Shown here: one piece after another, positions 23,582 through 25,274 of the stretch | How the letters are laid out: the number at the start of each line of letters is the position of its first letter | Position numbering within the stretch: the first letter of the stretch is position 1 | Source: Allobosea sp. OK403 | Lineage (GTDB): Bacteria; Pseudomonadota; Alphaproteobacteria; Rhizobiales; Beijerinckiaceae | DNA length: 64,000 nt | Assembly: GCF_900113835.1 (NCBI RefSeq) | Contig: NZ_FOQV01000002.1 | Location: 248,001 to 312,000, forward strand | Reading direction: 5' to 3' | Notes under the pieces: generated by a model | The model's database searches: none | Seen by the model: only the letters and a program-made list of their open reading frames with translations | Told to the model about the DNA's origin: nothing | Program-made: the position numbers and the translations under genes

Positions 23582-24274
23582 ATGAACGATCTTTCCGCCC
23601 ATATCCTGCGCGATGAGACCGACGCCGGAACAGCCGGCGAGCAAGCCTATGACCGGTTGCGCGCCGACATCGTCTTCGGGCGCCTGCAGCCCGGGCAGCG
23701 GCTCAAGCTGGAGCGGCTGCGGCTGGATTACGGCGTCGGCATCAGCACCTTGCGCGAAATTCTCAACCGCCTGGTGCCGGAAGGCCTGGTCGTCGCCGAG
23801 GGACAGCGCGGTTTCCAGGTCGCGCCCTGTTCGGCGGCTGACCTCAAGGAGATCGCCGCGCTGCGCCTCCTGCTCGAACGCCACGCGATGGAGCAATCCT
23901 TCCAGGCCGGCGACATGGAATGGGAAGGCCGCGTCGTCGCCGCCCATCACAAGCTCGCCCGGATGGAGGCCCAGTTGCTCGCCGGCGACCGCTCCAATGC
24001 CGAGCCCTGGAAACGTTATGACTGGGAGTTTCACCAGGCGCTGGTCTCGGCCTGCGGCTCGCGCGCGCTGCTGGCCCTGCATTCGGGCGTCTATGACCGT
24101 TATCTGCGCTATCAGATGGTTTTCGTCATCTTCCGCGGAGAAATCGCCGCCGACGAGCACCGGGCCTTGCTGGATGCAGCCTTGAAACGCCAAGCCGCCA
24201 GGGCGCAGGAGATCCTGTCCGCCCATATCTGGGGCTGCGTCGACTTCGCGCTCAGCCGGGGTCTGTCGAGCTGA
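23582..24274 (+). CDS. GntR-family (FCD) transcriptional regulator
   Basis: A 230-residue regulator. The winged helix-turn-helix is at residues ~18-80 (YDRLRADIVFGRLQPGQRLK, GISTLREILNRLVPEGLVV), followed by an all-helical FCD ligand-binding domain with metal-type residues (YDWEFHQALVSACGS, SAHIWGCVDFAL). FCD regulators usually respond to small organic acids or amino acids. It is divergent from the orphan binding-protein gene and probably controls it and itself from the shared 252-bp region. Confidence 0.92.
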   Translation: MNDLSAHILRDETDAGTAGEQAYDRLRADIVFGRLQPGQRLKLERLRLDYGVGISTLREILNRLVPEGLVVAEGQRGFQVAPCSAADLKEIAALRLLLERHAMEQSFQAGDMEWEGRVVAAHHKLARMEAQLLAGDRSNAEPWKRYDWEFHQALVSACGSRALLALHSGVYDRYLRYQMVFVIFRGEIAADEHRALLDAALKRQAARAQEILSAHIWGCVDFALSRGLSS

Positions 24275-24291: not shown

Positions 24292-24320
24292 TTGACAGTC
24301 CCGTCGGCGCGGGATCTAAG
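24292..24320 (+). promoter_or_regulatory. Sigma-70 promoter for the tyrA leader transcript
   Basis: A perfect -35 TTGACA (24292-24297), a 17-bp spacer and -10 TCTAAG (24315-24320, four of six matches). The expected start is about 24326-24328, which is the first base of the leader ATG at 24327, so the message would be leaderless. Confidence 0.65.
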
Positions 24321-24326
24321 CGGCGC

Positions 24327-24380
24327 ATGACCAGCCCCGCCCTGCTCCGCACCCAGCAGTATTACGCGCTCTTTTCATAA
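24327..24380 (+). CDS. Putative 17-residue leader peptide of tyrA (MTSPALLRTQQYYALFS)
   Basis: This short frame runs from ATG at 24327 to TAA at 24378. It has two adjacent tyrosine codons (TAT TAC, 24360-24365) and a phenylalanine codon just before a hairpin that overlaps its stop. The predicted transcription start coincides with its ATG, as known for the leaderless trpL leader in Sinorhizobium. The next gene, tyrA, makes the tyrosine precursor. Ribosome stalling at the Tyr codons could therefore sense charged tRNA-Tyr. This is an inference from arrangement; no homologue was checked. Confidence 0.6.
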   Translation: MTSPALLRTQQYYALFS

Positions 24381-24388
24381 GAGCGGGC
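24339..24388 (+). promoter_or_regulatory. Mutually exclusive hairpins in the tyrA leader
   Basis: CGCTCTT (24367-24373) pairs with AAGAGCG (24379-24385) around a 5-nt loop. The overlapping segment GAGCGGGC (24381-24388) can instead pair with GCCCTGCTC (24339-24347) with one bulge. Both are followed by GCATTTTC. The first arm lies in leader codons 5-7 and the second begins right after the Tyr codons, so ribosome position would choose the fold. A classical long T run is lacking. Confidence 0.5.
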
Positions 24389-24470
24389 GCATTTTCATGT
24401 TCAACCGCTGCGTTTGGCGGATGAACTAGAAGCAGTCACCCGGCATCGCGGCCCCCGAGAGGACCAGACG

Positions 24471-25274
24471 ATGCCTACCCAGCGACATTCATTCTCCTCG
24501 ATCGGCCTGATGGGCTTTGGCGCCTTCGGCCGGCTGATAGCGCGGCACCTCCAGCCGCATCTGCCACTTGTCGTCTTCGATCCGGCGCACGCGCCCGAGG
24601 CCGACGGCTCCGGCAAGGGCCTTGCTCCCGGCGACATCGTGCAGGTCGCCGCCTGCGACATCGTCATTCTCGCCGTCCCGGTCGACCGGCTGCCGGAAGC
24701 CATAGCGAGCCTGCGCCCGCATCTGCGCACCGGGGCGATCGTGCTCGATGTCGGCTCGGTGAAGATCGAGCCGGCACGCCTGCTGCTCGCCGAACTGCCC
24801 GACGATGTCGAGATCATCGGCACCCACCCGCTCTTCGGGCCGCAGAGCGCGCGCAACGGCATTGCAGGCCTGAAGATCGCGCTCAGCCCGATCCGCGGCG
24901 ACAGCTTTCGCCGGATCGCGGCCTTCCTGCGCCATGTCCTGAAGCTCGACGTCATCCTGACCACGCCGGATGCGCATGACCGCGACATGGCAATGGTGCA
25001 GGGGCTGACCCATCTCGTGGCAAAGATCCTCGTCCGGATGGAGCCGATGCCGCGCCGCATGACGACGAAGAGCTTCGAGCTGTTGATGCAGGCGACCGAG
25101 ATGGTGCGCCATGACGCGCCCGGCGTCTTCCTCGCGATCGAACGCGCCAACCCGCATGCGCGGGCCGTGCGCGAGCGCTTCTTCGGCTATGCTGAGGAGC
25201 TGACCGAGACCTTGGAGCGCGGGCATGACACGCCGCCTCCGGCAGCTAGAGAAATCGAAGCGGAAATTGCGTGA
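24471..25274 (+). CDS. tyrA: Prephenate/arogenate dehydrogenase
   Basis: A 267-residue NAD(P)-dependent enzyme of tyrosine synthesis that oxidatively decarboxylates prephenate or arogenate. The Rossmann motif GLMGFGAFGRLIARHL and the family signature IIGTHPLFGPQSARNG are present, and the catalytic His is expected in THPLFGP. There is no chorismate mutase or ACT domain, so tyrosine feedback on the protein itself is not evident. That makes control at the leader more plausible. The ATG at 24471 follows GAGAGGA by about 8 bp. A 144-nt leader separates it from the predicted start. Confidence 0.92.
   Translation: MPTQRHSFSSIGLMGFGAFGRLIARHLQPHLPLVVFDPAHAPEADGSGKGLAPGDIVQVAACDIVILAVPVDRLPEAIASLRPHLRTGAIVLDVGSVKIEPARLLLAELPDDVEIIGTHPLFGPQSARNGIAGLKIALSPIRGDSFRRIAAFLRHVLKLDVILTTPDAHDRDMAMVQGLTHLVAKILVRMEPMPRRMTTKSFELLMQATEMVRHDAPGVFLAIERANPHARAVRERFFGYAEELTETLERGHDTPPPAAREIEAEIA

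Follow-up and report, generated by a model that had tools for sequence, protein, structure and literature searches.

The tyrA gene of the window, the whole stretch of 64,000 nucleotides that was analysed, is very probably preceded by a ribosome-mediated attenuator that senses tyrosine codons. The initial annotation of this DNA had proposed that tyrA is controlled by a tyrosine attenuator whose peptide is leaderless, and the proposal is supported both by the conservation of the leader and by related leaders before tyrS, which add specificity for tyrosine. The parts of such a switch, their conservation, the tyrosine codons, the tyrS leaders and a set of mutually exclusive complementarities can all be read from the DNA itself. 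For leaders of the Bosea type, the output is probably the initiation of tyrA translation. The features discussed below are as follows (segments are numbered 1 to 6, and a pairing is written as two segment numbers joined by a colon).

24292-24297, plus strand: -35 box TTGACA, seen in the window; TTGAC is kept in 50 Bosea loci
24315-24320, plus strand: -10-like TCTAAG, a poor consensus match, after a 17-nt spacer from the -35 box
24327-24380, plus strand: leader frame MTSPALLRTQQYYALFS*, found in 50/50 Bosea loci and in 3/3 more
24360-24365, plus strand: putative control codons TAT TAC (Tyr-Tyr), identical in the same 50/50 and 3/3 loci
24367-24373, plus strand: segment 1, 5' arm of hairpin A, CGCTCTT
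24379-24386, plus strand: segment 2, 3' arm of hairpin A; AGCGG at 24382-24386 pairs alternatively with segment 3
24400-24409, plus strand: segment 3, 5' arm of hairpin B; CCGCT at 24405-24409 has segment 2 and the 3' arm of B as alternative partners
24407-24425, plus strand: segment 4, spanning hairpin B from the end of its 5' arm through the loop to its 3' arm; the arm 24416-24425 pairs with segment 3, and 24407-24420 with segment 5
24440-24452, plus strand: segment 5, putative anti-start element CCGGCATCGCGGC, with one variable position in 50 Bosea loci
24457-24463, plus strand: probable Shine-Dalgarno sequence GAGAGGA of tyrA, by inspection
24469-24475, plus strand: segment 6, CGATGCC, the tyrA start codon with its flanks; pairs with 24442-24448
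24471-25274, plus strand: tyrA, prephenate dehydrogenase family

The tyrA gene and its surroundings

The window belongs to a 6.6-Mb genome of the genus Bosea. Its TyrA scores above the cut-off of PF02153 and slightly under that of PF20463; the PDB matches are prephenate dehydrogenases, as are the top NCBIfam models, every one of which falls below its cut-off. The closest solved structures are the 'Prephenate dehydrogenase 1' (PDH1) chains 5t9f, 5t95 and 5t9e, which we take to be the tyrosine-insensitive legume enzyme. If the bacterial TyrA is also tyrosine-insensitive, regulation through the leader would gain in importance. The TyrA of Bosea psychrotolerans shares 94% identity with that of the window, other named Bosea coming next, and a distant relative (~32% identity) is encoded on a different contig of the genome to which the window belongs. 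Directly upstream of the leader lies a gntR-type gene (23582-24274), which is probably outside the tyrosine system since it adjoins tyrA in only four of 50 Bosea loci, namely the window and three close relatives.

The leader is conserved throughout Bosea

A search of 67 genomes of the genus yielded 53 with a tyrA orthologue, which in one case is split in two, and 14 with distant relatives only. Inspection of the upstream regions revealed the leader before every orthologue, in 50/50 regions and then in 3/3 more. Each leader consists of a TTGAC box and a leaderless-type frame containing TAT TAC, together with two hairpins, the first of them around the stop codon, and a conserved 13-nt element. 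A first model search is in line with this: 20 of the 25 genus genomes listed gave a match, and the five without one are among the 14 that do not have the gene. The initial annotation had suggested a comparison with relatives as a check, and the frame and hairpins are indeed conserved in all 53 Bosea loci, with related leaders outside the genus. Taken alone, the window leader has an unremarkable fold (z -0.61), such that it is conservation, not the fold of the window, that raises the leader above chance. Rfam gave no gathering-level match in the eight loci tested, the T-box included, and only weak, chance-like matches below threshold in the window. No such leader was seen by eye in the 12 Bosea tyrS loci that were read (13 genomes searched).

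The short frame at ATG 24327 is present exactly as it had been described, and so are its two adjacent tyrosine codons, identical in 53/53 Bosea. The promoter before it had been called strong; its -35 box is perfect, but the -10 is poor (often TTTAAG in other Bosea), and a sigma-70 scan listed no site at the tyrA promoter of the window. The start of the TTGAC box precedes the ATG of the frame by 34-36 nt in 50 Bosea loci, two of which, L015 and L030, were read by eye. This spacing points to a leaderless start, and the frame is probably translated from a leaderless transcript. Bosea frames have 15-17 codons and end in YYAPSS, YYAPLS, YYTPSS or YYALFS. The N-terminal half of the peptide varies freely, and the phase of the frame is maintained through length changes of 3 nt.

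Two hairpins offer mutually exclusive pairings

Hairpin A (CGCTCTT/AAGAGCG) joins 24367-24373 to 24379-24385 and holds the stop codon in its loop and 3' arm, confirming the earlier placement of a stop-codon hairpin at 24367-24385. A role as terminator is not supported; the hairpin fits that of a protector, formed by pairing 1:2. The competing pairing of the initial annotation, 24339-24347 with 24381-24388, does exist in the window, but of the 50 Bosea loci only 15 show it above shuffled sequences (p < 0.05), and it was dropped as a general competitor. The conserved competitor is 2:3, in which 24382-24386 pairs with 24405-24409. Its sole varying pair is G-C in 45 and A-U in five of the 50 Bosea loci, a co-change that amounts to one event on the TyrA tree. 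For 1:2 we make no claim of covariation from the MAFFT alignment A1, because the 3' arm of hairpin A is placed one base off in some of its rows.

Three features are additions to the initial annotation: hairpin B (24400-24425), the match between this hairpin and the 3' arm of hairpin A, and the element at 24440-24452. Hairpin B is nearly invariant in Bosea and very stable, with a mean of -15.7 kcal/mol. The nine nucleotides that follow it contain 1.7 T on average and at most four in Bosea, which bears out the earlier remark that a long T run is absent. We read the missing T run as a clue toward an output through start-codon pairing. The scan of the window listed no terminator-like site near tyrA. 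A second frame inside hairpin B (ATG TTC AAC ...) was also considered and rejected, as 1-nt indels in relatives break its phase.

Pairings 1:2, 2:3 and 3:4 are mutually exclusive, their complementarities occur in 50/50 Bosea loci, and their placement would let the position of a ribosome choose among them.

Segment 5 can pair with the start codon of tyrA or with hairpin B

The 13-nt element CCGRCATCGCGGC (24440-24452) lies 14 nt past hairpin B and varies only at R. It has two overlapping partners, the tyrA start codon (5:6) or hairpin B (4:5), and the output in Bosea is for this reason most likely translational. Pairing 5:6 matches GRCATCG with CGATGYC, and 97% of cells pair across Bosea. Where R is A, the partner is T in 12/12 loci; where R is G, the partner is C in 26, T in 11 and A in one. 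Neither the covariation score nor the count of doubly changed cells was reached in any of 500 shuffles; the number of pairs with a double change (one) was reached in 318 of the 500, and slid versions of the pairing score lower. On the TyrA tree, R changes seven times and its partner four; independent pairs agree two to three times and never oppose, too few for the covariation to be significant on the tree. Pairing 4:5 appears in the RNAalifold consensus of two alignments, where it is preferred over other helices and comprises 11 pairs with 100% of cells paired. Since 4:5 hardly varies, it lacks covariation within Bosea.

The mechanism that we infer from these features concerns the leaderless start, ribosome stalling, the order of folding, the translational output and the direction of the response. 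Transcription would start at the AUG of the short leaderless frame. When charged tRNA-Tyr is scarce, the ribosome would stall on TAT TAC and cover segment 1, allowing 2:3 and then 4:5 to pair, so that the start codon in segment 6 would stay open and TyrA would be made. When tyrosine is plentiful, the ribosome would reach the stop codon and cover segment 2, or 1:2 would form after its departure. Hairpin 3:4 would then form, segment 5 would pair with the start codon and tyrA would be turned off.

The predicted switch depends on the order of synthesis

Folding of the nascent RNA without the 3' arm of hairpin B agrees with the proposed role of the ribosome. With a ribosome on the first tyrosine codon, 2:3 exceeds 0.5 in 50/50 Bosea loci (0.98 in the window); with the ribosome at the stop codon it does so in 0/50, and with no ribosome in 16/50 (0.0 in the window). 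Once 2:3 is locked and segment 5 has been transcribed in full, 4:5 forms in 50/50 loci, before the start codon is made. Locking 3:4 at the same length instead gives 4:5 a mean probability of 0.00.

Equilibrium folding does not show the switch. Hairpin 3:4 wins even with segment 1 covered, and with 2:3 locked the 5:6 pairing remains closed, leaving the AUG free in one of 50 loci. When the two states are written out, OFF is favoured over ON by ~4 kcal/mol on average and by 3 in the window. The 2:3 and 4:5 helices abut with no gap; we would expect this to permit coaxial stacking, which is absent from these energies and would help the ON state. Given that OFF wins at equilibrium, the mechanism would be kinetic, as in classical attenuators, or incomplete. 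That is to say, the modelled switch works only if the helices form in the order in which they are synthesized.

Related leaders precede tyrA and tyrS outside Bosea

Two covariance models were used to search more widely. R1, representing the Bosea leader, matched 49 of 298 genomes of the family (10 of 43 genera), 15 of 297 of the order and 4 of 289 of the class; R2, representing seven T-run leaders, matched 33 of 298, 11 of 297 and 9 of 289, respectively. These tallies overlap and include chance matches, and some R2 matches are listed with no locus and were left unread. On reading, the matches L097-L100, L140, L145-L147, L157, L159 and L167 were set aside as chance or unrelated. Another locus, L162, encodes a 29% TyrA relative and has a frame without the expected stop.

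Counting each place once, we read 34 leaders before tyrA and 22 before tyrS outside Bosea. Three of the synthetases match TIGR00234 far above its cut-off, and the others were identified by tblastn. Adjacent Tyr-Tyr or Tyr-Phe codons occur in 52 of these 56 leaders: all 22 before tyrS have Tyr-Tyr or Tyr-Phe, and 30 of the 34 before tyrA have Tyr-Tyr (six of the 34 tyrA frames were missed by the script and read by eye). Four tyrA leaders (L083, L087, L088 and L094) are without one or both tyrosine codons and retain the hairpins; the loss may reflect either decay or an altered signal.

The leaders differ in what follows the sensor. Before tyrS, 21 of 22 carry a GCCGCC-loop-GGCGGC hairpin with at least five T in nine nucleotides. 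Eight of the 34 tyrA leaders share GCCGCC/GGCGGC and a T run, and the TyrA proteins behind them are 37-45% identical to that of the window. In these T-run leaders, the 5' arm of the terminator is complementary to the 3' arm of hairpin A, which is the textbook arrangement. The remaining 26 tyrA leaders have hairpin B, followed in 24 of them by at most four T in the next nine nucleotides; the exceptions are L073, with five T in nine, and L168, with six T. Behind the terminator of four tyrS leaders (L085, L089, L092 and L095), GGTCTC(C)..(G)GAGACC surrounds the Shine-Dalgarno sequence by eye, perhaps a second, translational layer.

L168 (1501-1660) comes from a different family of the class and has the exact 13-nt element, with GGCATCG facing CGATGCC, in addition to T6 after hairpin B. 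The fold of its leader and start surpasses that of shuffled sequences (z -2.3). This locus backs a conserved role for segment 5 and also makes clear that hairpin B can resemble a terminator.

The spacer between hairpin B and the gene start was folded in 22 further leaders, where the Shine-Dalgarno sequence or the start codon generally lies within a helix. For 12 representatives, Bosea included, the fold gives a Stouffer z of -7.1 versus dinucleotide shuffles, a value to be read with the choice of representatives in mind, as they were chosen once the per-locus results had been seen, often as the better one of a pair. The match of hairpin B to the spacer is likewise above shuffles across 14 genus medians (Fisher p about 1e-6, all 76 loci, 50 from Bosea and 26 others), and native partners outperform those exchanged between genera (p 1e-4, at most eight loci per genus); both p values are optimistic because genera share ancestry. 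The result agrees with that from the representatives. L072, L073, L076 (start codon unplaced) and L168 are outside the folds of the 22 leaders and the representatives and outside the tree analysis, and are included in the genus-median test. At single loci the complementarity is weak (p 0.01 to 0.5).

On balance, we favour a family of leaderless tyrosine-codon leaders that is present in several families of Hyphomicrobiales and scattered beyond them. One kind of sensor would be joined to two exchangeable outputs: for most tyrA genes, sequestration of the start codon or Shine-Dalgarno sequence, and for tyrS and a divergent tyrA, a terminator with a T run. L168 seems to have both.

Frames of a similar kind were also met before other genes. 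L160, L161, L163, L164 and L153 have, from locus position 1501, Trp-Tyr-Phe or Tyr-Phe-Trp frames and a GCCGCC/GGCGGC hairpin before acetyltransferase-like genes, the GNAT domain having been tested in L161 alone. In L166 (1501-2663), a class I (W and Y) aminoacyl-tRNA synthetase is preceded by a frame ending in NRWWRS, a hairpin and a T run; its Trp codons suggest that the gene is probably trpS.

Alternative explanations

A reading that keeps the same tyrosine-codon sensor would have transcription termination as its output, with hairpin B acting as an intrinsic terminator that needs little or no T run, or in a Rho-dependent manner. The T runs of 21/22 tyrS and 8/34 non-Bosea tyrA leaders lend it some weight, as do TTTTTT behind hairpin B in L168, the five T in nine of L073 and the stability of hairpin B itself. 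We nonetheless consider it unlikely for the Bosea type, where the same nine positions hold at most four T, as they do in 24 of 26 B-type leaders elsewhere, and where no terminator-like site was listed near tyrA in the window. Termination at hairpin B would, moreover, leave the conserved segment 5 and its match to the start codon unexplained.

Action in trans or through the peptide, rather than as a switch in cis, has a precedent in Sinorhizobium meliloti rnTrpL/peTrpL, where, according to the accessible part of one paper, the leaderless attenuator RNA has functions in trans (PMC10117765). It is highly improbable that the leader works mainly in this way, given that the N-terminal half of the peptide varies freely and that the element is linked, through segments 5 and 6, with the start of the downstream gene. 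The very strong sequence conservation of the 3' half would also suit a ligand-binding riboswitch or a protein-binding leader in which the short frame is incidental. Against this stand the preserved phase of the frame, tyrosine codons in 53/53 Bosea and 52/56 other leaders, and the lack of a gathering-level Rfam match in the eight loci tested, and we give the idea very little credence. A chance frame beside chance hairpins would be compatible with the window by itself, where the fold is unremarkable and the scans list nothing. Conservation in 53/53 Bosea loci, and in 56 more before tyrA or tyrS, refutes it, and we regard its probability as negligible.

Comparison with known systems

Attenuation by leader peptides is textbook knowledge for Trp, His, Phe, Thr and the branched-chain amino acids, and the usual output of attenuators of amino acid genes is termination. 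We know of no described leader-peptide attenuator specific for tyrosine. If the proposed reading is true, tyrosine would gain its first known specific attenuator of the ribosome-mediated type, and the leaders together would constitute a natural series that kept its sensor but changed its output. A sensor of one kind seems to act on translation in front of tyrA and on termination in front of tyrS, which makes it possible to test directly how such outputs evolve. The leaders also indicate how these bacteria could link tyrosine supply and tRNA charging without a T-box, and many unannotated short frames become annotatable.

Open-licence papers yielded no tyrosine leader peptide, and their matches for tyrosine leaders concern Gram-positive tyrS or the T-box. 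The accessible parts of PMC10272879, PMC2965389 and PMC2864571 contain nothing on tyrosine, and the terms sought are absent from PMC4833913. In a study of Actinobacteria, the part accessible reports that no RNA structure was seen to be conserved upstream of the tyrosine operons of that group, and mentions T-boxes as the tyrosine elements of other bacteria (PMC1262725).

The tyrosine T-box of Gram-positive tyrS resembles the leader proposed here in that tyrosine genes are controlled through the supply of charged tRNA-Tyr; in contrast to the Bosea leader, it binds the tRNA directly and has no leader peptide. In translational attenuators of the ermC type, a ribosome stalled in the leader peptide opens a start region that is otherwise sequestered, much as we propose for tyrA. 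Those leaders are induced by a drug and control a resistance gene, whereas the signal here would be codon starvation, the gene is biosynthetic and an extra segment pair, 4:5, would stand between sensor and start. In Corynebacterium glutamicum, the aroR leader of aroF likewise places a peptide with aromatic codons (Phe-Tyr-Phe) before an aromatic amino acid gene; in the part available, a review describes it as responsive to Phe but not to Tyr (PMC11802643). Both organism and gene are unrelated. S. meliloti trpL/rnTrpL, from a related order, has a short leaderless frame with control codons for the amino acid of the downstream gene, and its mRNA, as far as the accessible part of the paper describes it, begins with the AUG of trpL (PMC10117765), which provides a precedent for a leaderless attenuator frame. 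Unlike trpL, which responds to tryptophan and acts by termination, the Bosea leader carries tyrosine codons, has no T run and pairs the start codon of its gene with a conserved element.
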